From NCBI GenBank assembly GCA_016841185.1, contig JAENZQ010000006.1:94717-134304 (forward strand): a DNA stretch of 39,588 bases, given 5' to 3'. The number at the start of each line of letters is the position of its first letter. The first letter of the stretch is position 1. The notes under the pieces are model-generated. The model did not search any database. It was not told the DNA's origin and saw only the letters and a program-made list of their open reading frames with translations. The translations under genes were made by a program, and so were the position numbers. Positions 15,014 through 29,469 of the stretch are shown here, one piece after another. Source of the DNA: Anaerovorax odorimutans. GTDB lineage: Bacteria; Bacillota; Clostridia; Peptostreptococcales; JAAYPU01.

Positions 15014-15024
15014 GTGGTGGAATT

Positions 15025-16803
15025 ATGAATGTTTATGAATTTGCAAGAAGATACTTAGAACCATATACGATAAAAGGGAATGAAATTATACCTAAACACT
15101 GCCCCTATTGTCAAGGAGGGCAGCACAGAGATAAAGAGACATTCGCTTTAAACATAGATAAACAGACATTTAACTGTAAGCGTGGAACATGTGGTAAGAC
15201 AGGGACCTTTTATCAGTTATGTAAAGACTTTGGAGAGGAAGCGGATAAAGTGAGTTATTACGGAACAATCGGAAGTACAAAGCAATATAAAAAGCCTGAG
15301 ACAAAAATTAAGACAATTACCAATCGAGCAGAAGCATACCTACAGAAAAGAAAAATCAGTAAGGCAACAATAGAAGCTTTTCAAATAGGTTGTGACGATA
15401 AAGACAATATTATATTTCCGTTCTTCAACGATAAAGGCGAACTTGAATTTATAAAATTCAGACCTTCCCACAAAGTTGGGAAAGGAGAACGTAAAGCATG
15501 GCGTGAAGCTGATACAAAACCGATTCTGTTCGGAATGAATCTCTGTAACCCTGAGTATCCCTTATGTATCTTTGAGGGTGAGATAGATTCTATGAGCGGA
15601 CATGAAGCAGGAATTCATAATTGCGTTAGCGTACCTTCCGGTACAGAAGATATGACCTGGATAGATACATGTTTTGACTGGCTAAAGCAATTCAATACTA
15701 TTTACCTCTTTGGAGACAATGACGAACCGGGAAGAGAAATGACAGGTAAGCTAAAGACTAAGCTTTCCAACCATAGACTTTACATAGTTGAACATAAGTA
15801 TAAAGACGCTAACGAACTACTCTATAGAGAAGGCGAAGAAGCCGTAAGAAAAGCCTATGAAGAGGCAAAAGAAGTACCTGTATACGGATTGATCGACCTT
15901 TCAGATGTCAAGGCATTAGATATTAAAAAAATTCCAAGTGTTAAAAGTGGAATCAAAGAACTTGATGCTAAATTAGGCGGTTTTTTGATGGGCGATCTAA
16001 GCATATGGACCGGTAAAAGAGGAGAAGGCAAAAGTACTTTTTTAGGACAGATCATGCTTGAATCCATTAATAACGGTTATAAAGTATGTGTTTATTCAGG
16101 AGAACTCCGGGCTGAGCGTTTTCAGTATTGGGTGAACCTTCAGGCTGCAGGAAAGGAAAATATAAAAAGCTATTATGACATAGATAAAGGCAGAGAAGTC
16201 TTTTATATAGATAAATCCATAGATGAAAAAATCCGAACATGGTACAAGGGTAAGTTTTGGCTCTATGACAATTCAATAGCTGAATCAAGCGAAGAAACAA
16301 GTATTTTAAAGATATTTGAGTATGCAGCTAAAAGATACGATTGTAAAGTATTTTTCATAGATAATCTGATGACCGCAAAATATAACGCAGACACTGAAAG
16401 CAATTATTACCGAGCCCAGAGTAACTTTGTTGGTCAATTAGTAGAATTTGCGAATAAATATAATGTTCACGTTCACCTTGTAGCGCATCCACGAAAGACA
16501 AGTAACAGCCTTGATAATGATGACATATCAGGAACAGCAGACATAACCAACCGAGCAGCAAATGTATTTTCTCTTGAAAAACTGAAAGACGAAGACAGGA
16601 CAAAACAGGGTTATGACGTACTGTTATCTATTCTGAAAAACAGATGGGAAGGCTATACTGGGAAATTTGGTTTAAATTATTGCCATACTTCCAGAAGGCT
16701 ATATGCTCCAAGCGTAGGCAATAAACGTATATATGGATGGCAAAAACTTGGAAAACAATTTGATTGGGTAGAGGAAATAGCCGACAAGGATTCATTATTT
16801 TAA
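15025..16803 (+). CDS. Primase-helicase (zinc ribbon, TOPRIM, DnaB-type ATPase)
   Basis: 592 residues with three parts. A zinc ribbon has cysteines at 26, 29, 51 and 56 (CPYC, CKRGTC). A TOPRIM fold has E185 in IFEGEID and D231/D233 in FGDNDEPGRE. A RecA-like helicase domain has Walker A TGKRGEGKST at 329-338 and a Walker B-like VFFIDNLM. The layout matches T7 gp4-type primase-helicases of phages and satellites. The upstream initiator would load it on the origin. This shows the element can replicate itself after excision. Confidence 0.9.
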   Translation: MNVYEFARRYLEPYTIKGNEIIPKHCPYCQGGQHRDKETFALNIDKQTFNCKRGTCGKTGTFYQLCKDFGEEADKVSYYGTIGSTKQYKKPETKIKTITNRAEAYLQKRKISKATIEAFQIGCDDKDNIIFPFFNDKGELEFIKFRPSHKVGKGERKAWREADTKPILFGMNLCNPEYPLCIFEGEIDSMSGHEAGIHNCVSVPSGTEDMTWIDTCFDWLKQFNTIYLFGDNDEPGREMTGKLKTKLSNHRLYIVEHKYKDANELLYREGEEAVRKAYEEAKEVPVYGLIDLSDVKALDIKKIPSVKSGIKELDAKLGGFLMGDLSIWTGKRGEGKSTFLGQIMLESINNGYKVCVYSGELRAERFQYWVNLQAAGKENIKSYYDIDKGREVFYIDKSIDEKIRTWYKGKFWLYDNSIAESSEETSILKIFEYAAKRYDCKVFFIDNLMTAKYNADTESNYYRAQSNFVGQLVEFANKYNVHVHLVAHPRKTSNSLDNDDISGTADITNRAANVFSLEKLKDEDRTKQGYDVLLSILKNRWEGYTGKFGLNYCHTSRRLYAPSVGNKRIYGWQKLGKQFDWVEEIADKDSLF

Positions 16804-16815
16804 GGAGTGATTAGA

Positions 16816-17085
16816 TTGAGACTATCGGAAACGGTAACACCTACAACGGAAGTAATAGACGAACTTAAAAAGAGATTTATAACAGTGAATATGCGAATGG
16901 ATGAAGCTATAAAATCTCTTGATGATAATAGGATCCCAAAAGAAGAAAGAGAAAAACATTTACTTACATTCCAGGTTGAGGTTGTACAGGTATTAGAAAC
17001 CTATCTGGAAGTAATAAAAGATTGGAAGGTTGAAATCACAGAAGAAGAACTTAAAGGCGGTTATTTCAAGGAGGTGAGAATATGA
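16816..17085 (+). CDS. Small hypothetical protein in the replication operon
   Basis: 89 residues from TTG at 16816, nine bases after AAGGAG. The GTG at 16807 is too close to that site. It is mostly helical and charged (RFITVNMRMDEAIKSL). I do not recognise it. Its last codons overlap the next start by four bases (ATGA). Confidence 0.6.
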   Translation: MRLSETVTPTTEVIDELKKRFITVNMRMDEAIKSLDDNRIPKEEREKHLLTFQVEVVQVLETYLEVIKDWKVEITEEELKGGYFKEVRI

Positions 17086-17219
17086 CCGAAAAAGAAATAA
17101 AAACAGAACTATTAAAGCTCTCTAAAGAAGAACTTATCAATCAAATGCTGATAAGAAACAGAACGATTGAAAAGCTTTCAAAAGAAATAGATAAATTAGA
17201 ATCTAAAAATAAAAATTAA
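17082..17219 (+). CDS. 45-residue coiled-coil protein
   Basis: The ATG overlaps the previous stop (ATGA) and has AAGGAGGTG upstream, so translation is probably coupled. The product is helical with leucine/isoleucine heptads (ELLKLSKEELINQML, IEKLSKEIDKLE). No function is known. Confidence 0.65.
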   Translation: MTEKEIKTELLKLSKEELINQMLIRNRTIEKLSKEIDKLESKNKN

Positions 17220-17240
17220 AAAAGTAAGGGAGTAAAAACA

Positions 17241-17750
17241 ATGAAAAATGTAAATGAGATTTTAACAATAGAAGATGCTATGGAGTATGTCAGTATATAT
17301 CCAAAATTAAAAACTGCTTATGAAACGTTGGCAAGAATTGAGGCATTAGAAAGCGAGGCAGTAAATGAGGATGATGACATCCAAAGAGAATGTTTGTTGC
17401 AGAGGATCAGAGTTGCAAATAATTGTTTTAGAAAAAATATACTTGAATTTATGACAGAACATGATCAAGAAACTTTAAAAAAGTATGACGATCTTTCTAA
17501 TCGTTATGAGGCAATAGTAACTAAACTGCAAGATGCTCTTAAAAAAGAACGAGAAGAAAATGGACAAATATTAACAGGTCTAACACTTGCTATAATAGAT
17601 AATCCCAATGAAACAATACAGAGCATGCTCAATATGCTAAAACGAAATATCGATATAGAAAATCCGGGTGATGGTTGGAAATATTCTCTTGAATTTGGAT
17701 TAATAGCACGTCTTAAGATGGCGTATAAGATTATATTTGGAATGCGGTAA
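17241..17750 (+). CDS. Hypothetical helical protein
   Basis: 169 residues, acidic and largely helical with a coiled-coil-like middle (DDLSNRYEAIVTKLQDALKK). It follows AAGTAAGGGAG and lies in the same direction as the replication genes. I see no catalytic motif and do not recognise it. Confidence 0.65.
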   Translation: MKNVNEILTIEDAMEYVSIYPKLKTAYETLARIEALESEAVNEDDDIQRECLLQRIRVANNCFRKNILEFMTEHDQETLKKYDDLSNRYEAIVTKLQDALKKEREENGQILTGLTLAIIDNPNETIQSMLNMLKRNIDIENPGDGWKYSLEFGLIARLKMAYKIIFGMR

Positions 17751-17767
17751 AGTGAAGGGAGTTAACT

Positions 17768-18058
17768 ATGAAACTGACTAAGGAAGAAATGGAAACCATT
17801 ATTCGCTTTGATGAATCAAGTCAGACAGCAACAGTATATACATGTAGCCGGGCATGGAAAACAAAGTTTAGAAAATTAGCAGAACAGAACAAGGCTTTTA
17901 AATTAATAGATCAAGATGCTGAATCAGTTACTTTTGAATTTCCGAAAAGTCTAATTACGATAAGAAGTAGAAAAGTTAAAAGAGAACTGACGGAGGAAGA
18001 AAGACAAAAATTAAGCGAGAGAATGAAGCAGAATATCGCAAATAATCCGTCAAACTAA
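17768..18058 (+). CDS. Small phage-type hypothetical protein
   Basis: 96 residues. The pattern FDESSQTATVYTCSRAWKTKFRKLAEQ, then TFEFPKSLITIRSRK and a basic tail, resembles a small protein common in replication regions of Firmicute phages, with no known function. It closes the replication operon, and a 143-base gap follows. Confidence 0.65.
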   Translation: MKLTKEEMETIIRFDESSQTATVYTCSRAWKTKFRKLAEQNKAFKLIDQDAESVTFEFPKSLITIRSRKVKRELTEEERQKLSERMKQNIANNPSN

Positions 18059-18201
18059 TGTCGCTAACTGTAAATCTCAAAATAGAATACAAAGGTAATA
18101 GTAAGACATTATAAGAGGTCTAAATTTTTAAAATAACAATAAGGAAACCATGAATAAACATTCTTGTAAATAAAAAAGCCTTATTGCTAAGGAGGTATAC
18201 C

Positions 18202-18735
18202 ATGAAAGGTAAAAAAACTACAGAAGAAAAGAAAGAAGAAGTAAAGGCATTACTATATATAAATCCCTATATCTCACAAAGAGAAATATCAAGGCAGACA
18301 AATATACCTTTGACTACTGTACATGAGATACAGAAAACTATTGTGAATACTGATGAATTTGAACAAGTGCGAACACAAAAAAAGCAAGAGTTCATAGATA
18401 AAGCTTGGAATGTAGTCCAGAAAGCCCTTGTATTGACTGAAAAAAGGTTTGATAAGGCATTAGAGAATGAAGCAGAATTTGACCTTCTCTTAGACAAAAT
18501 AAACGATTCTGAAATGACGCTTAAAGAAAAGTCTGCCCTCCTCAGTAAACTCAAAGCCATTGAAATGACTAATATCAGAGACATAGCTATTACTTTAGGC
18601 ACGATCTACGACAAGCAAGCTTTAGCTTCTGGCGAACCGATTACAATATCAGAGACTACAGAACCCACTCCGGTATTAATAGAAGAATTAGAAGCAAAGA
18701 TGAAACAACTTAAACAGTTAATATCAAAACAGTAA
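18202..18735 (+). CDS. HTH protein, possible small terminase subunit
   Basis: 177 residues. An N-terminal HTH (SQREISRQTNIPLTTVHEIQ) is followed by a helical body and the segment NIRDIAITLGTIYDKQALASGEP, which I associate with phage proteins near or at the small-terminase position. If so, it would recognise DNA for packaging into a helper phage. A transposase-like or regulatory HTH role is also possible. ATG at 18202 follows AAGGAGGT. Before it lies a 7-codon reading frame (18150-18173), and CCTTA/TAAGG around 18183-18192 covers part of the ribosome site. Confidence 0.55.
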   Translation: MKGKKTTEEKKEEVKALLYINPYISQREISRQTNIPLTTVHEIQKTIVNTDEFEQVRTQKKQEFIDKAWNVVQKALVLTEKRFDKALENEAEFDLLLDKINDSEMTLKEKSALLSKLKAIEMTNIRDIAITLGTIYDKQALASGEPITISETTEPTPVLIEELEAKMKQLKQLISKQ

Positions 18736-18767
18736 CTGTTCCCTAAATGTATTTCTTGGGAACAGTT
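18734..18767 (+). other. 10-bp perfect hairpin at the end of the HTH gene
   Basis: AACTGTTCCC pairs with GGGAACAGTT and overlaps the TAA stop. No T-run follows, so it may be an mRNA end stabiliser or a protein site. Confidence 0.5.
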
Positions 18768-19027
18768 GAAAAAGAATGAGTATTTGCAACGCTTTCAAGA
18801 TTCGTAAAAACCGATTCCCTTTTGATATGCATCATTTATGCATTACATACACTATTTATACAGTGTTTATGCACGTCACGACAGCCCTATTATTAACGAT
18901 AAAACTAATAGGGGGAGGGTACACCCCTATAGCCATAAAACAATGGGGGTGGGTATGTGTATATATATCCCACACATACCCCGAACATAACAAAATGCCA
19001 TTAAAAAAACAAGAAAGGAAGAGAAGA
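18768..19027 (+). other. Non-coding stretch with a chain of palindromes (origin or cis-site candidate)
   Basis: No convincing gene. Palindromes are TGCAT/ATGCA (18828-18842), ACACT/AGTGT (18849-18866), CCCTATTA/TAATAGGG (18885-18913), a competing ATAGGGG/CCCCTAT (18908-18930), and a 10-bp stem GGGTATGTGT/ACACATACCC (18951-18981). The density of inverted repeats next to the replication and possible packaging genes fits an origin or a packaging/recognition site. This is inference. Confidence 0.45.
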
Positions 19028-19183
19028 ATGAGTATTAATAAACAAATATTAGAAGAGGTTGAAAAGAAAATTAAAGAGATTAAGGAAAATCCAAATTTAG
19101 ACAAGCTACCAATAGCTACAATAGTATCTATAGACAGTCAAGCAGTATCTGCGTTACATTCTCTTGATTTATACAGAGATTAA
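19028..19183 (+). CDS. 51-residue hypothetical protein
   Basis: The ATG at 19028 follows AAAGGAAGAG. The product is helical and charged at the N-terminus (QILEEVEKKIKEIKENP). The frame extends upstream through the palindromic region, but no ribosome site supports an earlier start. Not recognised. Confidence 0.5.
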   Translation: MSINKQILEEVEKKIKEIKENPNLDKLPIATIVSIDSQAVSALHSLDLYRD

Positions 19184-19405
19184 AGTAAAGGGGCTATAAA
19201 ATTATTTTATTTCTTTGTTGAAAGCGTCAATTTGCTTGTAAACGCTTTTGAAAATATTTATAGCATTTTGTTCTATTAAATTTGAATTACTTGAATTTTC
19301 CTTATAATCAAGTTTATTTGTAACAGCAGCCGCTAAAGTAGCAGCCACAATATCTGAGTTATTAATTTTTTCCATACAACACCCCTATAATAGCCCCTTT
19401 ACTTT
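19182..19405. repeat. 16-bp inverted repeats enclosing a small minus-strand gene
   Basis: AAAGTAAAGGGGCTAT (19182-19197) is the exact reverse complement of 19390-19405. The 192 bases between contain one small gene on the minus strand. No target duplication is obvious at the edges. Confidence 0.65.
19202..19375 (-). CDS. 57-residue minus-strand protein inside the inverted repeats
   Basis: Reading leftward from ATG at 19375, preceded by AGGGGTG, the product begins MEKINNSDIVAATLAAAVTN and ends in a helical lysine-rich tail. An alanine-rich first half and amphipathic second half suggest a small helical protein. It is opposite in direction to all genes around it. Not recognised; it is called because the ribosome site, start and composition look real. 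Confidence 0.5.
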   Translation of the reverse strand: MEKINNSDIVAATLAAAVTNKLDYKENSSNSNLIEQNAINIFKSVYKQIDAFNKEIK

Positions 19406-19458
19406 TTACAATATTTTACATCATATGGTAGGAAAAGGGAAGGGAAAAGGAGGTACAT

Positions 19459-19698
19459 ATGAACGTACTAACGATAAAAAACAATTTAACGTTAGACAGC
19501 ATAGAAGTAGCAGAAATGATGATGATTCAACATAAAGAAATTTTAAGAAAACTCGAAGGTGGCAAAGACAGGAAGGGTTACATTGAAATTTTGACTGAGC
19601 ACCAAATGGCGCCGAGCAAATATTTCATTGAAAGTTCATACACGAACTACAGATATTTCAGAACAATTGAACAGAAATTTACAAAGCAAATCGTTTAA
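19459..19698 (+). CDS. Rha-family phage regulatory protein, shortened
   Basis: 79 residues after AAAGGAGGT. LTLDSIEVAEMMMIQHKEILRKL and YFIESSYTN match the N-terminal pRha domain of phage Rha regulators. The usual continuation, where PCYLLTKKG follows the FIESSY strand, is absent: the frame runs into YFRTIEQKFTKQIV and stops. It is either a short form or a truncated copy. Confidence 0.6.
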   Translation: MNVLTIKNNLTLDSIEVAEMMMIQHKEILRKLEGGKDRKGYIEILTEHQMAPSKYFIESSYTNYRYFRTIEQKFTKQIV

Positions 19699-19746
19699 AA
19701 GTTTCTCTAAACAAAATAAAACAAACCATAACCGAGGTGAGAATAT

Positions 19747-21318
19747 TTGAAGAATATACTATTATTGTCTGTAGAAGATGAAGAAAATAACATTTGCATT
19801 AATACATATAAAGATGCTGCTGTCCTTACATTAACAGCATATCTAAAGGAGAAAGGATATAATGTAAAAATAATTGATGAAGATATCAAAGACATAGACT
19901 ATACAGACATAAAGAAGTTTAAGCCTGATGTAATAGGAATACATGGGTATATAAAATCCTTGTTTGATAAAGCATTACCAGAGATTAAAAAGAACAATCC
20001 TGATACATATATTTGTATGGGATTAGGACAACCTGATTTAAACATTAAAGAAGTATTAAAGAAGTATCCTATAATTGACTTTGCTGTATATAATGAAGCA
20101 GAATTAACCTGGTGCAATCTTTTAAAATGCTTAGAAAAAAATGAAAGCCTTGAGAAAGTCAAAGGGCTTATTTATAGAAAAAATGATACCTTCATTGTTA
20201 CTGAACCTGAAGAATTAATAGATATAAACACATTGCCATATATAGCCCTTAATCCAGACCACAAAAAAAGAATGTTAAATATACAAACTTCAAGAGGTTG
20301 CACAAATCATTGTTCATTTTGTACTATGCGGTCACTACAAAGAAAATACCGGATGAAGGATGTTAAAAGAACCGTTGATGAAATAGAATACTTTGTCAGA
20401 GAACACAAAAAAACAAAAGTTCACTTTTCGGATTACAGTTTTGAAGATCCTAATAAAAACAGATTAAAAGCCTTGTTACAGGAAATAATCAATAGAGACC
20501 TTAATGTCATGCTTTCAGGTAATTTTAGACCAAACTTTATTAAGAAGATAGACCATGAGTTATTAGACTTATTATTAAAAGCAGGATTCACAAGGGCTTT
20601 TATAGGAATTGAAGCAGCCAATGAACAAGATTTAATACTTTATAATAAGCAATCTACCGTTCAAGATGCCCATAGAATAATAAATACTTTTAAATGGTCA
20701 GGCATCAATACAGAAATTGGATTTATAAATTTTAATCCCTACTCTACATTAGACAGCTTAAGACAAAATGTTGATTTTCTTGATTGGTACGGATATGCAA
20801 ACTTTTTCAATATTAAATCTACACTGGGAATGTTTAAAGAGACTCCAATATATAACTCTATCGAAAAAGATTTAATGACTACAGATGATTTGGGGAAAAT
20901 AACCTTTAAATTTAAGAATCCTGAGGTTGCTAAAATACACGAATTTATAAATTATTATTTTAACTACCTAAGAAATGAAAAAATTATCCAAGACTATGAA
21001 AAAGAGTTTAATGATATAAAAAATATTTATGAGTTTAGTTTTAAGCTAAAAAGAAAAGGGGATATTGATCCTTCTTTATGTGCTTTAGACTATTATTATC
21101 AAATTAAACATATGTCTGATGCTATGAGTCATTATATAGCAAGTTGGTTTAAAAAACTTTTAGATTTAGCTGATAAAGGGTTTAATTTAGAAGAAGCAAA
21201 ATTAATGTCAGTTAATATATTAAGCCCTGACTTTATCCGGGAAACCACAGAAATAATGAGAGATAAAAGAAAACGGTTTGATAAGACATTTCATTTAGAT
21301 GAGGAAGGTCGGATTTAA
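19747..21318 (+). CDS. Radical SAM enzyme with an N-terminal cobalamin-binding-type domain
   Basis: 523 residues, TTG start after CGAGGTGAG. Residues 1-135 have the Rossmann-like fold of B12-binding domains (ILLLSVED, VKIIDEDIKDID, PDVIGIHGY, YICMGLG), without a clear DxHxxG. Residues 180-400 are a radical SAM barrel with the cluster motif C185-x3-C189-x2-C192 (SRGCTNHCSFC), FSDYSFEDP, and GFTRAFIGIEAANEQDL. The last 120 residues are an unassigned helical region. This is the BchE-like class that does methylations or ring chemistry. The substrate is unknown, and no precursor peptide or biosynthetic partner is adjacent except the tiny ORF at 21400. Such a gene is unexpected cargo in an element this small. 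Confidence 0.88.
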   Translation: MKNILLLSVEDEENNICINTYKDAAVLTLTAYLKEKGYNVKIIDEDIKDIDYTDIKKFKPDVIGIHGYIKSLFDKALPEIKKNNPDTYICMGLGQPDLNIKEVLKKYPIIDFAVYNEAELTWCNLLKCLEKNESLEKVKGLIYRKNDTFIVTEPEELIDINTLPYIALNPDHKKRMLNIQTSRGCTNHCSFCTMRSLQRKYRMKDVKRTVDEIEYFVREHKKTKVHFSDYSFEDPNKNRLKALLQEIINRDLNVMLSGNFRPNFIKKIDHELLDLLLKAGFTRAFIGIEAANEQDLILYNKQSTVQDAHRIINTFKWSGINTEIGFINFNPYSTLDSLRQNVDFLDWYGYANFFNIKSTLGMFKETPIYNSIEKDLMTTDDLGKITFKFKNPEVAKIHEFINYYFNYLRNEKIIQDYEKEFNDIKNIYEFSFKLKRKGDIDPSLCALDYYYQIKHMSDAMSHYIASWFKKLLDLADKGFNLEEAKLMSVNILSPDFIRETTEIMRDKRKRFDKTFHLDEEGRI

Positions 21319-21382
21319 TATCCGGCTTTAATTTTACTAGGGATACTTCCTTTTATTTTGCAGATACTAAAAGATAATAATA

Positions 21383-21432
21383 TAAAAGGAGGTGATTTAA
21401 TGTTCTCCTTTATAATAATTATTATTAAATAA
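21383..21432 (+). other. Micro-ORF of 10 codons with a hairpin-covered ribosome site
   Basis: AAAGGAGGTG precedes ATG at 21400, and the frame MFSFIIIIIK ends at 21432. AAAGGAG (21385-21391) pairs with CTCCTTT (21405-21411), so the ribosome site lies in a hairpin formed with the start of the ORF. It may be a leader peptide, or only a regulatory hairpin. Confidence 0.4.
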
Positions 21433-21600
21433 TTCAACCAAAGAACTTACGGGATAATTATTTGTTTCGTAAGTCATATAGAATAAAATTATAAAATATT
21501 AGCTGTTAGGGCTTTTTTTATTTTTATCTAAAATCCATCCTGAAATATCCTATCAATCATATTCCTTAAAACCATGACAAACTTTTTTAGTTATTTGAAT

Positions 21601-21860
21601 CGTGAGAGTTGTATTAAAAAGGCAACCTTTAAAAACTTGGTTGTCACATCCAAGTATATCTGAACTTTAGAAGCGAATTTTCGCTGATGAAATCTCATGG
21701 CTGATAATTCAGCCGCCAAACCTAAGACGGAAATAGCCTTAAAAGTTTTCTAACCCAATAAGCTAATAGTAAAACAGAAAATAAAATGTCTTTATAAGGG
21801 TTTAGTATGCCTAAGATATTTAAAAATCATTTTTCACGTATTTATGTGTAGTTTTTTTGG
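21601..21860 (+). ncRNA. Candidate structured RNA upstream of the DUF3800 gene
   Basis: The 537 bases 21433-21969 hold no gene. Within them AAGGC (21619-21623) can close on GCCTT (21736-21740), enclosing the hairpins ACTTGG/CCAAGT (21635-21655), AGCGA/TCGCT (21672-21685), ATGA/TCAT (21687-21698) and GGCTGA/TCAGCC (21699-21714). GGCAACC/GGTTGTC is an alternative that excludes the first hairpin. A weak hairpin before GTTTTTTT (21835-21858) could end it. Published DUF3800 RNA motifs exist near genes of this family, but I cannot match this one to any. Confidence 0.4.
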
Positions 21861-21907
21861 ATAGAGATGGAGAAGGGTTTACCCCTGTTTTGATATTTCT
21901 TCTTCAA

Positions 21908-21955
21908 AATATTACAAATTAATACTGTATGTGCTATAATTATTTTTGTAATATT
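21908..21955 (+). promoter_or_regulatory. DUF3800 promoter inside an 11-bp inverted repeat
   Basis: An extended -10 TGCTATAAT (21932-21940) has TTACAA 17 bases upstream. AATATTACAAA (21908-21918) and TTTGTAATATT (21945-21955) flank it as a perfect inverted repeat covering the -35 edge and the start site, as an operator would. Confidence 0.6.
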
Positions 21956-21969
21956 CGGGAGGGCGAGAT

Positions 21970-22650
21970 ATGAATATTTATATAGACGAGTCTGGCAGCA
22001 TGACACATAATATAAACAAAGATGAATTTTTTATAATTACTTTGTTACTCGTTGAAAATCAAAATATACTTAAAAATATATATAATAGATTTATTAGAAA
22101 ATATTATGATGATTTAAAAAATATTTCATGTGAAAACAAAATGTTTGATAAAAATGAAAAATTTCTTGAATTAAAAGGTTCAAGTTTTAATCCGGATATG
22201 AAAAGGAAGTTTATAAATTATTTTTGCAAAAATAATCACTTTAAATTTTTGTATATAAAAGTTGATAATTCAAAAGCTTATAGTAACTTTTACAAAAATA
22301 AAGCAAGGGCTTTTAACTATATCGTAAAGTTAGCATTAGAACATTTGAATAATCGTGGAGTATTAACCGATAGATGTTGGTCTATTTGTGTAGATAATAG
22401 AAATATAAAAACCGGTACAAAGCATCAATTAAAAGAGTTTTTATCAACTGAATTAATTACTGGTAAAGATATTGTTGATGAAATACATGTGGAATATTTC
22501 GATTCATGTAATAATAAGCTTATTCAATTGGCTGATGTGTTTTCAAATTTATTATATTCTAACATTAAAACTGAAGGTAATTATAACGAAGAGATAGAAT
22601 TTTTACAAGATAATGGATATTTAATTGGGTTTTTTAAATTTCCTCTATAG
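21970..22650 (+). CDS. DUF3800 family protein
   Basis: 226 residues. The N-terminus MNIYIDESGS has the YIDESG motif, an acidic residue in CVDNRN lies at two thirds, and KLIQLADVFSNLLYS near the end matches the conserved QLAD helix. DUF3800 proteins are predicted to have an RNase H-like fold with acidic active-site residues, and they are common in mobile elements and near non-coding RNAs. CGGGAGGG precedes the ATG. It has its own promoter in an inverted repeat. Two copies of a structured RNA follow 38 bases after the stop. An activity on RNA or DNA is plausible but untested. Confidence 0.8.
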   Translation: MNIYIDESGSMTHNINKDEFFIITLLLVENQNILKNIYNRFIRKYYDDLKNISCENKMFDKNEKFLELKGSSFNPDMKRKFINYFCKNNHFKFLYIKVDNSKAYSNFYKNKARAFNYIVKLALEHLNNRGVLTDRCWSICVDNRNIKTGTKHQLKEFLSTELITGKDIVDEIHVEYFDSCNNKLIQLADVFSNLLYSNIKTEGNYNEEIEFLQDNGYLIGFFKFPL

Positions 22651-22687
22651 TACATATATTTATTTTTTTCAAATATAATAATATTGT

Positions 22688-22767
22688 AGCGTTAACAGTA
22701 AGTCCTAAACTGTGCCTTAGTCTAGGTAAACACTATGTGTTAGTGTCGCATTTAGGCAATTAACGCT
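22688..22767 (+). ncRNA. Structured RNA element, copy 1
   Basis: An 80-nt element that pairs end to end: AGCGTTAA with TTAACGCT, then CCTAAA with TTTAGG, then ACACTA with TAGTGT around the loop TGTGT. Conserved single strands shared with copy 2 are CAGTAAGT after the first arm and TCTAGGTAA in the middle. TATAAT at 22674-22679 stands eight bases before it, but no good -35 and no terminator are seen, so it could also be part of the DUF3800 mRNA. Confidence 0.6.
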
Positions 22768-22788
22768 CAAAATATTTATCCACATATA

Positions 22789-22817
22789 TTGACAACACAA
22801 TACATATGTTGTATGAT
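22789..22817 (+). promoter_or_regulatory. Strong promoter of the copy-2 RNA
   Basis: TTGACA (22789-22794), 17 bases, TATGAT (22812-22817). The expected start, near 22824, is the first base pair of the copy-2 structure. ACAACA/TGTTGT in the spacer could be an operator. Confidence 0.8.
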
Positions 22818-22822
22818 TAATA

Positions 22823-22951
22823 TACGTTAACAGTAAGTCCTAAAGAAATGCCATTATCTAGGTAAGTGATATGTGTTATCACCATTCTTGGGCAATTAAC
22901 GTAACATATGAATTACGAAGACCTTTGATTAATTTCAGAGGTCTTTTTTTT
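22823..22951 (+). ncRNA. Structured RNA element, copy 2, as a free-standing transcript
   Basis: The element (22823-22903) repeats copy 1 with paired changes: TACGTTAA/TTAACGTA outside, CCTAAAGAA/TTCTTGGG in the middle with one bulge, GTGATA/TATCAC around the same TGTGT loop. A terminator follows at once: AGACCTTTG with CAGAGGTCT (22919-22944) and a run of Ts to 22951. With the promoter at 22789 this defines an RNA of about 127 nt. Covariation in three helices argues for a conserved RNA fold. I cannot assign it to a known class. Confidence 0.7.
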
Positions 22952-22962
22952 ATAAAGGATTT

Positions 22963-23005
22963 TCCCCTTTCATGGAGAATTATGGAAATAAAAAATAAAA
23001 GGGGA
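22963..23005 (+). promoter_or_regulatory. Hairpin covering the ribosome site of the next gene
   Basis: TCCCCTTT (22963-22970) is complementary to AAAGGGGA (22998-23005), which is the likely ribosome site for the gene at 23013. The structure would keep that gene's translation low unless opened. Confidence 0.45.
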
Positions 23006-23012
23006 TGGTAAT

Positions 23013-23459
23013 ATTTTAAAAGATGATTTAAATATAATTCATAATGGTCTTAATGCTATTAACCAACGAATTGAGAAAGAGCGAAAAGAGCAATATGCAG
23101 CACTGGAGAAGAAATTCAAAGAGGAAGAGGATTATAAACAAAAACTATTAGAAGGTGTTCAAGAAACAGCAAGAAATACCGCAGGCTTAATTGAAATAGC
23201 TGCACTCATTAAAAATAATAACGAAAAACAAGAAGAGATAATAGAAATAATAGTTGATATTTTAAATATGTCTAAGGCTATTAGTAAAGAGGAAATAAAA
23301 AGCATTTGGAGAAAGATATTTGATAAAGCAAGCGATACAATAAAAGACGCTGAAACATTTCAGAAAATAATAAGTATAGGCAAGCCTGTTTATGAATTTG
23401 CAATTCAGAATGCTGAAAAGGTTAACCAAGTAATAGACAAAACAAAAGATTGTTTTTAG
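23013..23459 (+). CDS. Coiled-coil element protein with a non-standard or broken start
   Basis: The frame is protein-like from codon 23013 to 23459 (about 148 residues): DDLNIIHNGLNAINQRIEKE, a charged coiled coil, then an amphipathic C-terminal half (IWRKIFDKASDTIKDAETF). The first in-frame ATG is only at 23268, well inside. AAGGGGATGG lies before an ATT at 23013, which could be a rare start. Alternatively, the true start is ATG at 23005, thrown out of frame by one base lost from the T-run at 23014-23017: adding one T gives MVIFLKDDL and restores the whole protein. Not recognised. A small terminator (23458-23479) follows. Confidence 0.6.
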   Translation: MLKDDLNIIHNGLNAINQRIEKERKEQYAALEKKFKEEEDYKQKLLEGVQETARNTAGLIEIAALIKNNNEKQEEIIEIIVDILNMSKAISKEEIKSIWRKIFDKASDTIKDAETFQKIISIGKPVYEFAIQNAEKVNQVIDKTKDCF

Positions 23460-23479
23460 AGCTTAAAGGCTCTTTTTTT
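23458..23479 (+). terminator. Terminator of the coiled-coil gene
   Basis: AGAGC pairs with GCTCT over TTAAAG, followed by TTTTTTA. Confidence 0.65.
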
Positions 23480-23503
23480 ATTAAAAATATTTCCAAAACA
23501 TTC

Positions 23504-23540
23504 TTGACATACGTATATAAATATTATAATATATACGTAT
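23504..23540 (+). promoter_or_regulatory. Promoter with palindromic operator before the RHH gene
   Basis: TTGACA (23504-23509), 17 bases, TAATAT (23527-23532). ATACGTATAT (23509-23518) and ATATACGTAT (23531-23540) form a perfect inverted repeat over the -35 edge and the -10, well placed for repression by the RHH protein encoded next. Confidence 0.75.
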
Positions 23541-23582
23541 ACAAATACATAATCATATAATATAAAATGGAGGTGGTTACAT

Positions 23583-23723
23583 TTGGGTCACAGAGTCCCA
23601 TTTACGACAACTATTGATGGCGAGCTATTAAAAAAACTTAGAATTGTAGCGATTGAAGAAGGTAGAAAAGTAAATGACATCTTAGAGGAAATCATCAATG
23701 AGTATATCAATAAGAAAAAATGA
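23583..23723 (+). CDS. Ribbon-helix-helix (CopG/Arc-type) repressor
   Basis: 46 residues from TTG, seven bases after GGAGGTGG. A beta strand (HRVPFTTTID) is followed by two helices (ELLKKLRIVAIEEGRKVNDILEEIINEYI), the exact plan of RHH dimers that read palindromic operators. The perfect palindrome overlapping its own promoter makes autorepression likely. It may control the small genes at 23871-24516 as well. Its shortness hides it from many gene callers. Confidence 0.75.
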   Translation: MGHRVPFTTTIDGELLKKLRIVAIEEGRKVNDILEEIINEYINKKK

Positions 23724-23725
23724 AA

Positions 23726-23836
23726 AGGAATCCGGACACCTGGACAGTGAAAGCGGATTCCTAACACGAAACAAGCCTGTAAAGGGCTCGCTTTGCATTG
23801 CTATTATAGCATACAAGGTACTGCCCTTCAAGGCTT
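23726..23836 (+). ncRNA. Structured leader between the RHH gene and the next gene
   Basis: AGGAATCCG pairs perfectly with CGGATTCCT (23726-23762). A second nested structure (23773-23836) has AAGCCT/AGGCTT outside, AAGGGC/GCCCTT inside and the tip TGCTA/TAGCA. Only 35 bases separate it from the next start. It could be a cis-acting mRNA control region. Confidence 0.45.
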
Positions 23837-23870
23837 GGGAAAACAAATTATTTATATGGAGGGTATTGAA

Positions 23871-24158
23871 ATGAAAAAGGATAATTTATTTGATGTTACT
23901 AATAAAGTATGCACTGTAGAGTCGGACCTTGAAAAAATAAAAGTATTACTAAGGGAATTAGAGTTAGGGCATTTCAATGTCAACATTGAGAAAGGCATGA
24001 ATGGAATTAAAGACATTGATAACCCATTAGTAAAATTAGCATGGGAACATAACAACCACCGCTTATTATTCGAGATCATGGAAGATTACGTATATTCTAT
24101 TTATGGCCGGATTAATGGATTAAGAAAAGAATTAGAGGGGGAATTAAAATCATGTTAG
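23871..24158 (+). CDS. Small helical element protein
   Basis: 95 residues from ATG at 23871, after GGAGGG. It is helical and acidic (ESDLEKIKVLLRELELG, WEHNNHRLLFEIMEDYVYSIYGRI). The frame continues upstream through the structured leader, but no ribosome site supports an earlier start. It overlaps the next gene by seven bases. Not recognised. Confidence 0.6.
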   Translation: MKKDNLFDVTNKVCTVESDLEKIKVLLRELELGHFNVNIEKGMNGIKDIDNPLVKLAWEHNNHRLLFEIMEDYVYSIYGRINGLRKELEGELKSC

Positions 24159-24454
24159 TAAATATTGATGAAAGAGTGTTAAGTAAAGTTATTGAGGAAA
24201 TTTATCATAATTATGTTGAGAGTTCTGAATATGTTCTCGGACAACAACATCCGGAAGCAGTAAAGTCATTAAGAGATATTCTCGAATATATGCAGGAAAA
24301 CACTTCTAATGCAGTTTGCGTTGAAATTGAGGATATGATAGGCAGTGTAGCTACAGCATATGAAAAAATGGGTTTTCTTAATGGTTTTAAATATGCTGCA
24401 AGTATAATGAGCGATCAGGAGAAAGAACAAACAAAGGAGGACAAAGCATGTTAG
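24152..24454 (+). CDS. Small helical element protein
   Basis: 100 residues, mostly helical (RVLSKVIEEIYHNYVES, EAVKSLRDILEYMQENT). Its start overlaps the previous stop and its own end overlaps a further tiny ORF at 24448 that begins with the same MLVN. Translation of the three is probably coupled. No motif is known to me. Confidence 0.6.
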   Translation: MLVNIDERVLSKVIEEIYHNYVESSEYVLGQQHPEAVKSLRDILEYMQENTSNAVCVEIEDMIGSVATAYEKMGFLNGFKYAASIMSDQEKEQTKEDKAC

Positions 24455-24516
24455 TTAATGAAAAGGTGTTGGAAGAGGAACTGGAAGTAATATTCAATAT
24501 TATTACACACAAATAA
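24448..24516 (+). CDS. 22-residue ORF, truncated sibling of the preceding gene
   Basis: ATG at 24448 with AAAGGAGG upstream; product MLVNEKVLEEELEVIFNIITHK resembles the first 20 residues of the preceding protein (MLVN, RVL, EEI). It may be a fragment left by duplication or a small functional peptide. Confidence 0.4.
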   Translation: MLVNEKVLEEELEVIFNIITHK

Positions 24517-24887
24517 GATTATGGGGGTAACGGAATGTTATCCCCATCTTTGGTTAGACATCAATATATAGATCACAATATCGATTCTGAGGTCAGAAAC
24601 ACTGTACAGTTCTTTATTTTCTGAATGAAACTCGGTTAAGCCATAGTTACCCCTTACCTTGATATATAAAAAATTAATTAGTTAGATTAGAGGGTACTTT
24701 TACCGAGGAAATTTTCCCTTGAGTGAGAAAATTGGATTGAGTAACTTTCGGACCAATGTAAGACCGAAAGTACGTTCAGTAAATTAACCGAATAGATTTG
24801 TACTCCATAAATTTAAACACAGGATTGCGTTTCAAACGTAACCCTTTTAAACTTAAAGAAAAAATGAAATTTATGGAGGTATGAAAA
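24517..24887 (+). other. 370-base non-coding leader with several hairpins before the excisionase-like gene
   Basis: No gene. ATGGGGGTAAC pairs with GTTATCCCCAT (24521-24547), but GTTACCCC at 24646-24653 could pair with the same left arm instead, giving two exclusive folds. ACTTTCGG/CCGAAAGT (24744-24771) follows. CTCCATAAATTT (24803-24814) is the exact complement of AAATTTATGGAG (24867-24878), which contains the ribosome site of the next gene. This looks like a long mRNA leader that controls translation. Confidence 0.5.
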
Positions 24888-25217
24888 ATGAATAACACAA
24901 AGGAAGTAAACGAAAGAATATTAAAAATTACAGAAGAACTAAAAATGATAATGTTAAAAACCACAGAATTAGAAAGCCAAGAAAAAACTCAACAAAAAGA
25001 AAGGATTAAAAAATTAGAAAAACAACTACAGCCGCAACCACAGCCATGTCAATTATTAACACTTTATGAAGTATGCGACATTCTAAGGGTTAAAAGATGG
25101 ACAATCTATAAGTTAGTTGAAAGCGGAAAGCTTAAAGGCTACAAGATGGGCAAAGAGTATAGATTCAAGAAAGAAGATGTAGATGCCTATTTTGAAAGTA
25201 ATCTGATTAAGTATTAA
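24888..25217 (+). CDS. Excisionase-like HTH protein with a coiled-coil N-terminus
   Basis: 109 residues. The first half is a coiled coil (ERILKITEELKMIMLKTTELE) with a PQPQPQP-type linker. The second half is a helix-turn-helix of the HTH_17/excisionase family: LLTLYEVCDILRVKRWTIYKLVESGKL, then KGYKMGKEYRFKKEDVDAYFES. Such proteins bend DNA to favour excision by tyrosine integrases, or act as regulators. Its ribosome site GGAGGT lies in a 12-bp hairpin, so its synthesis appears held back, which would suit an excision factor. A terminator follows. Confidence 0.75.
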   Translation: MNNTKEVNERILKITEELKMIMLKTTELESQEKTQQKERIKKLEKQLQPQPQPCQLLTLYEVCDILRVKRWTIYKLVESGKLKGYKMGKEYRFKKEDVDAYFESNLIKY

Positions 25218-25244
25218 CCAATGCTAAATATGAGGGTGTTATTT

Positions 25245-25278
25245 AGAGGCTTAGAATACCTAAGTCTCTTTTGTTTTG
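25245..25278 (+). terminator. Terminator after the excisionase-like gene
   Basis: AGAGGCTTAG pairs with CTAAGTCTCT (one G-T), loop AATAC, then TTTGTTTT. Confidence 0.7.
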
Positions 25279-25345
25279 AGTAACATGTAAAATCATGGTA
25301 TAGTATAGCTATAAACAAGATAATATAAATGTTTGGAGTGGTTTT

Positions 25346-26179
25346 ATGCTATCTCTTGAAGAATATATTGCTAAAAGAAAAAAAGAAGACAAGATAGATG
25401 AATTTAATATTAAAGAAAAACCTGAGAATATGAGAGTATGTGTGAACTATGTTTTCGAGTATTTTAATAATTATATAAATATTTCAGAGGCTGAAAAAAG
25501 AACAGTATTGGAAAATGAAGCAATAGATAAATACCGGAAACAACTAAGAGACTATGATGAAGAAGTAAGAGAATGGCTTGTAAGCATATATTCTGAATAT
25601 AATAAAAAAATAAAATTATCAATTACTAGTATATTAAAAAAGGATTATTTTTTTTATCTTTATAATTCAGATAAAGAGTTCCGGAGTTTATCGTATGATT
25701 GTTATTCCAAATTAATTAAGAAACATCCATATTTAAAAGAACAAACAGAAATGTTGTTTTTGTTTATAAAAGATTATCAAAGAATTAAAAGTTCGTTCCT
25801 GGAATACGAAAAAATTTATGTCTCTGAGGAAATAAATCAATGGATTGAAGAAACGTGGGAAAGATATCAAATTAATATTGTAAGGTTCGCACATGATTGG
25901 ATTCATTATTTTTATGATAACGATGATTTGTGGCCTGCAAACCATAAGAAAAAAAGCTTTGATGAATATATAGACTATGATTACGATTATAAACAAAAGA
26001 ATAATTTATTTAATATTGATTCTCTATATAGAAGAATGCCTAAAAAGCCATATACTAAGGGAAGAAAACAAGAGTTTGAAATATTGTTTATGTATTATTG
26101 GCTACATTCTGTAGAAGGTGATAATGATTACTGGCAAGAATATTTAGAAAAGACCTTGCCGAGTTTGCAAAGCAAATAA
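25346..26179 (+). CDS. Hypothetical protein rich in aromatic and charged residues
   Basis: 277 residues after TTTGGAGTGG. Soluble and helical, with many tyrosine, lysine and aspartate residues, for example FAHDWIHYFYDNDDLWP and FDEYIDYDYDYKQ. No membrane segment, signal peptide or catalytic motif I know. It is a separate transcription unit between two terminator-like regions, as cargo genes often are. Confidence 0.6.
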   Translation: MLSLEEYIAKRKKEDKIDEFNIKEKPENMRVCVNYVFEYFNNYINISEAEKRTVLENEAIDKYRKQLRDYDEEVREWLVSIYSEYNKKIKLSITSILKKDYFFYLYNSDKEFRSLSYDCYSKLIKKHPYLKEQTEMLFLFIKDYQRIKSSFLEYEKIYVSEEINQWIEETWERYQINIVRFAHDWIHYFYDNDDLWPANHKKKSFDEYIDYDYDYKQKNNLFNIDSLYRRMPKKPYTKGRKQEFEILFMYYWLHSVEGDNDYWQEYLEKTLPSLQSK

Positions 26180-26253
26180 TGTATGAGATAGAAAGAGGCT
26201 TGAAATAAAGTCTTTTTTATTTTGCTAAATTACTACAATAATTTACCATATTT

Positions 26254-26262
26254 TGTTATAAT
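26254..26262 (+). promoter_or_regulatory. Extended -10 promoter of the SLH gene
   Basis: TGTTATAAT matches the TGnTATAAT extended -10 consensus and lies 41 bases before the start. No clear -35. Confidence 0.5.
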
Positions 26263-26302
26263 GAGAAAATAGGGATATTACTTATAACAGAGGGGATTTA
26301 TC

Positions 26303-27652
26303 ATGTTTATAAGAGGGAAAAGCTTATTTATTTTTCTTTTGATTATTGTTTTCTCAACAACTAATGTGTTTGCGGCCAATATTAGCGATGTTGACGATAC
26401 AATCTATCAAGATGCAGTTCATTATTTAATTGATAATGGAATTATGTCTGGTTATCCTGACGGTGATTTTAAACCTAATAATGATATAACAAGAGCTGAA
26501 ATGGCAGCAACTATAGTGAGAGCAATAGGAATAAATTTTGTAGATATTGAAGAAAAAAGCAATTTCAATGATATGACTGGGCATTGGGCGGACAAGTATG
26601 TATCTGTTGCATTTAAAAAGAATATTATTACCGGCTATACTGATGGCACATTTAGACCAGATTCCAAAGTAACATTCCCGGAAGCTATTACATTAGTAGT
26701 TAAAATGGCAGGGCTTTCAAGTGAAGTTAGCACAACTAAAAGTTGGCCGACAAACTATATAAATTATGCCCATGAAAAAGGTATTTTAAAAAACGTAGAA
26801 GTTACCTTAACAGAAACAGCAACAAGAGGCGATGTAGCCATTCTGTTATATAATGCCTTTAATATTTTAAATAGTTATGACAATATAGGTGTTACCAAAG
26901 CGACTGTAAATACCTTCGTAAGTAACGGTATTAATACTGAGGATATAAAATCAGAAAATGATTTTGCTAATAACCTTGATTACTGTATTGGTGTTGAAAC
27001 AACTCTTAGTTATCCAAACTTAAATGAGAGCACTAACATACCAATTAATTATAGGGTTTATTATAGTAATAATATAGTTTATCAAGTCGCTCGGACAGTA
27101 GTATTGGACAAGGATACTACTACCACTACCTTTTATTATCATTTGCCGATAGATGAATTTACCAATAATGAAGATGGACAATATCGAATAGACATTATCT
27201 CAAACCAGAATTTAATAAAAAGCAAAACAATAAATTTATATACCGATTACAGTTACGAAACAGGAATTATTGAAGATATTGAAGTTAAATCATTAAAATT
27301 CTTTTCAAGCAATGGTGACTTTGTTGAAGAAAACCTAAGAATTTATACAAATGAGATTCCGCGTACCTATCAAACAAAATGTATTTGGTGGGAATTAGAA
27401 ATATCATATCCTGATTTAGATAGAACCATTGAATTTCCAATACATTTTAAGTATATAAAGAAAAGTAATGGTTTTGCATATGGAGATCATACTGTGGACT
27501 ATTCATTATATTTAGATAAAAATTCGGATAAGTTTATTGGAGGCATATATTCAGAAAAATTCATAGAATGGCCTACCGGTACATATAAAGTTCAAGTGTA
27601 TTCCTATGATAAATTAATTGCTGAAGAAGATTTCAAGATAGTAGAAGATTAG
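26303..27652 (+). CDS. Secreted S-layer homology (SLH) protein
   Basis: 449 residues. A signal peptide (hydrophobic core FIFLLIIVFSTTNVFAA, cut near VFA-A) is followed by three SLH domains: residues 27-75 (GYPDGDFKPNNDITRAEMAATI), 87-140 (HWADKYVSVAFKK, GYTDGTFRP) and a weaker third to about 195 (TATRGDVAILLYNAF). SLH triads anchor proteins to pyruvylated wall polymers. The C-terminal 250 residues are predicted beta-rich repeats of unknown role, with two related parts near ETTLSYPNLNE and WELEISYPDLDR. A cell-surface protein in this element may alter adhesion or phage reception (inference). Confidence 0.88.
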   Translation: MFIRGKSLFIFLLIIVFSTTNVFAANISDVDDTIYQDAVHYLIDNGIMSGYPDGDFKPNNDITRAEMAATIVRAIGINFVDIEEKSNFNDMTGHWADKYVSVAFKKNIITGYTDGTFRPDSKVTFPEAITLVVKMAGLSSEVSTTKSWPTNYINYAHEKGILKNVEVTLTETATRGDVAILLYNAFNILNSYDNIGVTKATVNTFVSNGINTEDIKSENDFANNLDYCIGVETTLSYPNLNESTNIPINYRVYYSNNIVYQVARTVVLDKDTTTTTFYYHLPIDEFTNNEDGQYRIDIISNQNLIKSKTINLYTDYSYETGIIEDIEVKSLKFFSSNGDFVEENLRIYTNEIPRTYQTKCIWWELEISYPDLDRTIEFPIHFKYIKKSNGFAYGDHTVDYSLYLDKNSDKFIGGIYSEKFIEWPTGTYKVQVYSYDKLIAEEDFKIVED

Positions 27653-27675
27653 GTACATAAAAGAGATGCGTCTTA

Positions 27676-28437
27676 ATGAAAAATGAAATGATTGGTGAAA
27701 GTATGATAAGAAAAGAAATATTATACGAACTCTTTATGGCTGGGCTTGCTATTATAGCTGTTACTTTATCAATATTAGATATAACAGGATATATTAATGT
27801 CAGCACAAACCGAAAGTTTTATTGGGCAGATATCGTTGTCCTAATAATCTTTGCAGCAGATTACTTCATAAGATTATTTTTAACCAACAACAAGAAGAGA
27901 TTCATCAAAGAGAATATATTCGATCTTATAGCAATAATACCGCTTAATTCAGTGTTCAGGGCATTTCGTGTAGTAAGATTATTTAGATTACTACGTTTTT
28001 TTAGAGTCATTGACTTATTTAATAAGTTTACAAAGAATAGTGAAAGGTTCTTAAAGACTAATAATTTTATTTACACTCTATATTTGTGTATTGGAACGAT
28101 AGGGCTTGGCTCTGTAGCAATATACTTTATCGAAAAAGGGAAAACAATTAATAGCTTCGGTGACGCCTTATGGTAGAGCTTTGTTACTACTACTACTGTA
28201 GGATATGGTGATATTTCTCCTTCTACGGGATTAGGAAGAATTGTTGCGGTTATTCTTATGTTAGTAGGCATAGGTTTTATCGGTATGTTAACCGGTACTA
28301 TAGCGACCTATTTTATTAAAGATAAGACAAAAGCTAGCTGTAAAGCTGATGTAAGTAAAGTTATTGATTTATCAGATTTGGATGACAGTAAGTTTGAAGA
28401 AGTTATAAATTTTATTAACTATATTTCTAATAAGTAA
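27676..28437 (+). pseudogene. Voltage-gated-type K+ channel interrupted by an amber codon
   Basis: Six-segment cation channel plan: S1-S3, an S4-like segment with regularly spaced arginines (FRVVRLFRLLRFFRVI), S5, pore and S6. Codon 28174-28176 is TAG just before the selectivity filter TTTTVGYGD; the frame continues without further stop to 28437. In relatives the sequence around here is ALWWSFVTTTTVGYGD, so the lost codon was probably TGG (Trp). As written, translation ends after 166 residues without a pore, so the channel would be dead unless the stop is read through. The gene sits directly upstream of the HEPN gene. Confidence 0.85.
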
Positions 28438-28456
28438 GATAAAAAGGGGTCAAGAA

Positions 28457-29299
28457 ATGAAAAAGTGTTTTAGCATTAACAATGTGAATATTATTAAGCC
28501 AATTTATGAAGTAAATGAGTATATTCTACTAAAGCAGGATCGGGAAGATAAAACCAAAACATGGGTTTATATCAAGGAAAATCAAAATGAATATTATGGC
28601 AATAAGTACTTGTTTTTTTACGCTTTACTACTAGCAGTTCCAAAAGTACATTTTGACATAGGATATAGGGAAAAGGAGAAGGAAGAAAGTATAGATTCAT
28701 ATTATTTATATAAGGATACATTAAATAATATTATAAAAACTCCAATGTTTAACATTTATTTTGATGAAAATATAATTAATTATTCTAGCGACAGTATTAA
28801 TGATGTAATTATCAATAAGATAAAAAATGCACTTGATATAGTTGTTAAACATGCACAGAATCATAATACAACGGGTATAAATAGATGGCACATTGCTTTT
28901 GATAATTATAAAAATGCTTATAGAAGCCTCTCAATAGAAGTAAGCATACAAAACTTAATAACAGCACTAGAAGCCTTATTGTTAAAATATAGTGGCGAGT
29001 TAAGCTTTAGAACTTCGTTATATTCAAGCCTTATTTTTGAAACTGATGTCAGAAAAAGAAAAGCTGTTTTTGATTTGGTTCACGAAATGTACGAAATAAG
29101 AAGTAAATCAGTACATGGAAGTATTTCTGCTACCTACAAGAAGCTTAAAGAAATTGAATATACGAAATATTATAGACTTAAGGAGATTGTATCTGAAATA
29201 TTAATAAAAACTTACGGTATGGAGGAAACTAAAATATTTGATTCTTTAAACAATATGGTCTATACTTGTGTAAAATTTGAAGATTATTTAAAAATATAA
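28457..29299 (+). CDS. HEPN (ApeA-like) domain protein
   Basis: 280 residues after AAAGGGG. The C-terminal half fits the HEPN_ApeA-type domain: SIQNLITALEALLLKYSGELSFR, then SLIFETDVRKRKAVFDLV and the catalytic RxxxxH motif as RSKSVHG. HEPN proteins are metal-free RNases, many in abortive phage defence. The N-terminal half is unassigned. It starts 19 bases after the channel gene and ends about 170 bases before attR, so it is the last cargo gene of the element. Defence is a reasonable guess for a phage-borne island but is not shown. Confidence 0.7.
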   Translation: MKKCFSINNVNIIKPIYEVNEYILLKQDREDKTKTWVYIKENQNEYYGNKYLFFYALLLAVPKVHFDIGYREKEKEESIDSYYLYKDTLNNIIKTPMFNIYFDENIINYSSDSINDVIINKIKNALDIVVKHAQNHNTTGINRWHIAFDNYKNAYRSLSIEVSIQNLITALEALLLKYSGELSFRTSLYSSLIFETDVRKRKAVFDLVHEMYEIRSKSVHGSISATYKKLKEIEYTKYYRLKEIVSEILIKTYGMEETKIFDSLNNMVYTCVKFEDYLKI

Positions 29300-29321
29300 A
29301 TTAACATTTAAGAATTATTTG

Positions 29322-29365
29322 TTGGGGACTATTTGGGGACTAAAGCTTCAAAAACAGTCCCCAAA
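29322..29365 (+). repeat. Arm-type repeats near attR
   Basis: TTGGGGACTATTTGGGGACT matches the left-end pair at 10904-10923, and an inverted copy, AGTCCCCAAA, follows at 29356-29365. Shared repeats at both ends inside the att sites fit integrase arm binding. Confidence 0.6.
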
Positions 29366-29469
29366 ATAATAAAAAATACAATAAGAATCAATAAGCACTA
29401 CATTAAAAATCGTTGAAATTCAAAGGATATCGCAACGTTTCGATAATATACAACAAGCATTAATTCGTA

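Follow-up and report, generated by a model that had tools for sequence, protein, structure and literature searches.

DUF3800-associated RNAs have been catalogued with, to our knowledge, no known function. Here we describe a structured RNA that occurs twice beside a DUF3800 gene in a 39,588-nucleotide stretch of Anaerovorax odorimutans DNA (the window, meaning the whole of this stretch), together with its homologues and its linkage to one clade of DUF3800 proteins. The DUF3800 family has been assigned an RNase H fold, associations with CRISPR and with non-coding RNAs have been noted, and RNase H-fold members accompany CRISPR types V and VI (PMC10910872, PMC12669027).

Two characterized kinds of RNA-protein system are the closest in organization. 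The ~100-nt RNA of AbiF-RCd22, which has a promoter and a terminator, neutralizes a toxic protein in cis and in trans (PMC12373285). Type III toxin-antitoxin systems (ToxIN, CptIN, TenpIN) combine a MazF/Kid-like toxin with an array of short pseudoknot repeats, in the order promoter, RNA, terminator, gene (PMC5086642), and phage-borne RNA mimics are known for ToxIN, such as the pseudo-ToxI of phage PhiTE (PMC3475682).

Like the type III systems, the window locus joins a structured RNA to a nuclease, here a predicted one, in a mobile context, and the same gene order recurs in four related loci (L133, L136, L137 and L139). Unlike them, the window has both RNAs after the gene and shows no RNA-terminator-gene order, its protein is predicted to adopt a type-2 RNase H fold, and its RNA is an 81-nt three-way junction. 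The likeness to AbiF-RCd22 (abiF motif RNA, RF03085) lies in the succession of SigA-type promoter, RNA, terminator and gene, in the presence of two motif copies and in the occurrence in prophages. The AbiF-RCd22 protein is, however, Abi_2/AbiF, which is linked to the ancestors of Cas13, and its two motifs lie in one RNA, whereas each window copy is a full unit.

Structure and homologues of the RNA

The gene, the RNA copies and their signals are arranged as follows.

21970-22650, + strand: DUF3800 gene, 226 amino acids (Pfam PF12686), predicted type-2 RNase H fold
22688-22767, + strand: RNA copy 1 (type a), 80 nt, with a weak promoter and without a terminator
22789-22794, + strand: -35 box TTGACA of copy 2
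22812-22817, + strand: -10 box TATGAT of copy 2, at a spacing of 17
22823-22903, + strand: RNA copy 2 (type b), 81 nt, predicted to be transcribed independently as a small RNA
22917-22951, + strand: intrinsic terminator of copy 2, a 12-bp hairpin followed by a T run

Both copies lie directly 3' of the DUF3800 gene and are separated by 55 bases, in agreement with the initial annotation, which had described an element of ~80 nt occurring twice. From the 5' end, the RNA consists of an 8-bp outer stem, the unpaired segment CAGUAAGU, a stem CCUAA(A)/UU(U)RGG and a 4-bp stem (UGUG/CGCA in copy 1, AAUG/CAUU in copy 2). The outer stem closes a three-way junction, inside which are a short 2-bp CC/GG hairpin, a UAA linker and a 6-bp hairpin with the loop UGUGU. 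The outer stem, the CCTAAA/TTTAGG stem and the inner hairpin with TGTGT had been recognized from the outset; the 4-bp stem and the CC/GG hairpin had been overlooked. Similarly, CAGTAAGT and TCTAGGTAA, described as unpaired, are conserved in both copies, with TCTAGGTAA partly within the CC/GG hairpin. The promoter and terminator attributed to the element are present for copy 2 (TTGACA-N17-TATGAT, then the terminator). Copy 1 is preceded by a weak promoter-like site, TACATA-N17-TATAAT, that is not convincing, and a search for its terminator found none.

A comparison of just the two copies shows both bases altered in 8 of 26 pairs; 98% of cells pair, a share that drops to 23-39% if the strands are shifted against each other by 1-3 bases. 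Minimum-energy folding recovers the comparative fold of copy 2 nearly completely, with the middle helices in a shifted register, and gives a partly different fold for copy 1; the folding z-scores of the two copies are -2.1 and -2.3. As single-sequence folding reproduces the fold imperfectly, the structure is established by the comparative evidence.

Homologues were sought with covariance models built from the two window copies (R1), from 11 sequences (R2) and, later, with a third model (R3); E-values from such home-made models are rough. R1 found relatives within the order, and one next to a DUF3800 gene (genome G005, locus L124). A pattern with 21 specified bases matched eight stretches in the named genome collection and two viral contigs, the matches including Tepidibacter sp., Treponema bryantii and a Spirochaetaceae metagenome-assembled genome (MAG). 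At E 0.1, R2 matched 11 of the 391 class genomes scanned; two of these matches were weak and were taken as chance. Altogether, the RNA has homologues in other Clostridia, Spirochaetota, prophages, Streptococcus satellite phages and a Listeria plasmid; no further copies were found in 149 genomes of the Treponema order. A first pattern used on viral contigs, TCTAGGTAAN{5,9}TGTGT, was too loose, and nearly all of its 120 rows were due to chance. Three matches of the genome scans with E-values of 0.03-0.1 (G198/L130, G420/L165 and G750/L166) were likewise taken as chance, with poor structure and DUF3800 not nearby.

Model-made alignments lean to their own structure, so covariation was counted on structure-blind MAFFT alignments. 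Compensatory changes affect 18 of 26 pairs in 10 sequences and 22 of 26 in 28 distinct sequences, with all eight pairs of the outer stem covarying. In the 28-sequence alignment, 92.8% of cells are paired, compared to 27-42% in slid versions, and the covariation score is 0.71 versus 0.25 for shuffled alignments, none of 500 shuffles scoring as high. Because the homologues covary, chance is excluded as the source of the structure. Conservation is higher in unpaired than in paired columns (mean top-base frequency of 0.86 versus 0.67), as expected of an RNA that is bound by a protein or has a tertiary fold.

The RNA had not been assigned to a class, and neither copy reaches the threshold of any Rfam family. 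The best match below threshold is DUF3800-I (RF02969), with 24.3 bits and an E-value of 0.14 against a gathering threshold of 44.2. The cores of the two RNAs align in the same register in both search directions, the DUF3800-I core of L208 being picked up by R2 at an E-value of 1.7e-5 and by R3 at one of 8.9e-5. They share a three-way-junction core with the order stem, inner stem, short hairpin, UAA linker and hairpin with a UGUAA or UGUGU loop. DUF3800-I also has a DUF3800 neighbor, with the RNA before (L208) or after (L209) the gene, and a terminator in its model. In contrast, DUF3800-I has a 5' hairpin before the junction where the window RNA has its closing outer stem and unpaired CAGUAAGU, and its proteins are far from the window clade (27.5 bits or no match to the clade profile A10). 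In view of the reciprocal match in a single register and its score below threshold, we regard the window RNA, on these sequence comparisons, as a new sister family among the DUF3800-associated RNAs, distantly related to RF02969 but not a member of it.

The DUF3800 partner and its linkage to the RNA

The adjoining gene had been correctly named as DUF3800: its product matches PF12686 with 43.7 bits (E-value of 6.1e-11), above the Pfam cut-off of 21 bits. An AlphaFold2 model, built from a shallow alignment of five sequences, has a predicted local distance difference test (pLDDT) score of 88.3 and a predicted TM-score (pTM) of 0.87. Residues 1-204 of the model form a type-2 RNase H fold, the best fold matches being RNase HII, H2 and H3 (Foldseek E-value of 6e-4; VIA Z-scores of 10-11, at ~3 Å over 148-160 residues). 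The protein shares with RNase HII and RNase H2 the fold and an N-terminal Asp-Glu motif, which reads IDESG in the window protein; the corresponding motif of RNase HII is DEAGRG. Unlike these enzymes, to which its sequence identity is 7-15%, it is linked to an RNA and mobile, with no housekeeping role implied. Asp6, Glu7, Glu67, Asp142 and Asp189 are invariant in all 30 clade proteins; Asp178 is not. These conserved, active-site-like acids suggest nuclease activity. A search by sequence for a solved structure of the window protein found none, and PADLOC returned no defense-system call, only weak matches of the homing-endonuclease type.

Linkage is tested most cleanly at loci chosen by the protein alone, in viral contigs. 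Relatives of the window protein are encoded on 23 such contigs; R2 places the RNA beside 20 of them and R3 beside one more (L203). The contigs of L198 and L201 stop within a few bases of the DUF3800 stop codon and hence fall outside the count, leaving the RNA present in 21 of 21 testable loci. In the Streptococcus satellite phages Javan731, Javan555 and Javan276 and in the Listeria plasmid, the RNA follows the DUF3800 stop codon by ~40-90 nt (E-values of 1.7e-8, 1.1e-5, 6.3e-9 with R3, and 5.5e-7, respectively). In the 391-genome class scan, all eight genomes with a clade protein carry the RNA, some of these proteins having been found through it. The corresponding hypergeometric value of 7e-16 is not used as evidence, since the RNA had led to some members of profile A10 and the genomes are related. 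As a single query, the window protein matched nothing in the genome contigs; the profile search of contigs did find matches. The protein tree groups the window protein with those of L161, L162 and L181 (support of 99/98).

Ten other DUF3800 loci (L145, L146, L149-L154, L178 and L179) lack the RNA; L145 is the second DUF3800 gene of the window genome. Most of their proteins have no match to the clade profile, and those of L178 and L179 match it weakly. Treponema bryantii and the Spirochaetaceae MAG each have several of these further genes (L149-L154), which may have other RNA partners. The RNA-protein system that the initial annotation held possible has thus gained a covarying structure, further homologues and linkage to DUF3800 genes.

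Each locus carries one or two full 81-nt units, in varied order. The RNA follows the gene in L158-L160, in most viral loci, in the satellites and in Listeria. It precedes the gene in L186; it also does so in L133, L136, L137 and L139 (the last from Treponema bryantii NK4A124), and in these four loci the order is promoter, RNA, terminator, Shine-Dalgarno site and gene. Two RNAs, a and b, follow the gene in the window, L157, L161 and L181, and they flank it in L162, with a before and b after. In L124, the arrangement is convergent, with the RNA on the opposite strand. Type a copies are 69-80% identical among themselves and 54-71% to type b, and b copies are 75-88% identical among themselves. A tree of only ~80 columns separates the two types (support of 85/89; 98% of bootstrap trees). 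All five b copies are accompanied by a terminator and a strong promoter-like site; the a copies all lack a terminator, and none shows a clear promoter. Both types are kept together in five loci. Given this split and the differing signals, the duplication into a and b is probably old, with both copies retained. In L133 (3872-4331, in a Spirochaetaceae MAG), the DUF3800 gene is frameshifted beside an intact RNA. Partial RNA copies occur in L135 and, elsewhere on the contig of L133, in L134 (790-825).

The pair is found on phages, phage satellites and integrated elements; in L157, it lies in the lysis region of a prophage. Among the papers searched, none dealt with DUF3800 and phage satellites. 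In the window, the module is part of an integrated element of 18.7 kb (10794-29514), which also carries a tyrosine integrase, a primase/helicase-like gene and a radical SAM gene and is delimited as follows.

10794-10838, no strand assigned: left attachment-site repeat, the 3' part of a tRNA-Arg, 45-bp exact repeat
10948-12375, - strand: tyrosine integrase of the element (Pfam Phage_integrase, E-value of 3.6e-28)
29470-29514, no strand assigned: right attachment-site repeat, 45-bp exact repeat of 10794-10838

In the integrase, an HTH_3 (Cro/CI-type) domain is inserted after the N-terminal SAM-like domain and ahead of the catalytic one, which looks unusual for a tyrosine recombinase. The 650-bp gap before the DUF3800 gene contains a structured-looking stretch (21640-21780) with CTGATGA...GAAA and a folding z-score of -1.7; an Rfam search of this 650-bp leader gave no match.

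Candidate functions of the pair

The RNA occurs without a DUF3800 gene in L132 (whose genome lacks any DUF3800), L138, L163 and L140/L141, while the gene without the RNA was never seen in the clade where this could be tested. L138 and L163 look maintained, since compensatory changes separate them. At 954-1582 of L163, a solo RNA and the start of a SocA_Panacea antitoxin-like gene, which is encoded on the opposite strand, overlap. In L140 (9413-9493) and L141 (2421-2501), the RNA lies among phage virion genes (portal protein, E-value of 8e-64) on contigs without DUF3800, and a search for a promoter found none. By analogy with the pseudo-ToxI of PhiTE, these two loci, which are fragments, suggest a phage decoy.

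On balance, we favor the RNA as an obligate partner of the adjacent DUF3800 protein that exerts antitoxin-like control over a predicted nuclease and is carried with it as mobile cargo. This reading draws on three observations: the layout of the loci with an upstream RNA matches that of type III toxin-antitoxin systems and AbiF-RCd22; RNA-only loci exist and no gene-only locus was found in the clade where this could be tested, as if loss of the RNA were harmful and loss of the protein were not; and the module rides on mobile DNA. The conserved unpaired bases of the RNA (CAGUAAGU, UCUAGGUAA, UGUGU and CAA) would bind the nuclease, keeping it inactive or limiting its amount. If the RNA ran short, for instance because a phage infects the cell or the element is lost, the nuclease set free would cut nucleic acid, and the module would resemble type III toxin-antitoxin systems or AbiF-RCd22 in its action, serving as element-borne defense or addiction. 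Of the two window copies, copy 2 would be the source of free RNA. Copy 1, which lies in the 3' untranslated region of the DUF3800 mRNA, could be bound or cleaved there and so couple protein output to activity.

Several observations weigh against antitoxin-like control. The window and most viral loci have the RNA downstream of the gene, instead of upstream and separated from it by a terminator, and the RNA of L124 is encoded on the strand opposite to the gene. The solo RNAs are few: L138 lies 167 bases from a contig end, L140/L141 are incomplete, and L132 may be in decay. The more distant DUF3800 genes of L178 and L179, which possibly group with the clade, are without a detected RNA. Finally, an activating or scaffolding RNA would give the same linkage.

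That last point defines the main rival, which we consider rather unlikely: an activating ribonucleoprotein in which the RNA is no inhibitor but a cofactor or scaffold needed by the DUF3800 nuclease, for example as an anti-phage effector. The near-obligate linkage and the conserved unpaired bases fit it equally well, and the RNase H-fold DUF3800 proteins beside CRISPR types V and VI (PMC10910872, PMC12669027) are in line with it. The solo loci in which the structure is preserved (L138 and L163) are, however, easier to understand as antitoxins than as cofactors without an enzyme.

Autoregulation, in which DUF3800 would set its own expression by binding the RNA in the leader or 3' untranslated region of its mRNA, would leave the RNA without a separate role. 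The four loci with an RNA and terminator just ahead of the start codon (L133, L136, L137 and L139) could be read in this way, as could copy a, which has no terminator and lies in the 3' untranslated region (window, L157, L161 and L181) or before the gene (L162). It is nevertheless improbable, since most loci have a downstream RNA with its own predicted promoter and terminator, the RNA of L124 is on the other strand, and solo copies exist.

With its RNase H fold and its small linked RNA, carried on mobile elements, the pair also recalls RNA-guided nucleases, in which the RNA would steer the protein to its targets like an omega-RNA or bridge RNA. We rejected this very improbable reading: the length is fixed near 81 nt, the variable positions lie in covarying helices, and the unpaired segments are nearly invariant, leaving no variable unpaired guide. 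The slightest chance falls to an independent riboregulator of element or helper-phage genes that is near DUF3800 by coincidence, for the strong predicted promoter and terminator and the siting in mobile elements would allow it, but the RNA accompanies one DUF3800 clade across elements of Clostridia, Spirochaetota, Streptococcus and Listeria with differing other genes, and nothing was found in support of the helper-phage control raised by the initial annotation.

The analysis adds a covarying RNA family that is undetected by Rfam and tied to one DUF3800 clade wherever this was testable. The clade protein is assigned a predicted type-2 RNase H fold in which acidic residues are conserved, and the two partners are found together on phages and satellites. 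The question of what DUF3800 RNAs do is thereby reduced to a simple two-gene test. The abiF RNA, too, entered Rfam as a motif without a function and later proved to be an antitoxin, which makes the prediction for the DUF3800 RNA concrete. Tentatively, the pair may be a new kind of toxin-antitoxin or abortive-infection system, spread across phyla by phages, prophages and satellites, in which a three-way-junction RNA restrains a nuclease of type-2 RNase H fold, some phages carrying the RNA by itself use it as a decoy against the nuclease, and one lineage maintains two RNA paralogues, one in the mRNA and one free. If true, this would add a further nuclease fold to the RNA-restrained toxins and, possibly, a phage-borne RNA decoy.
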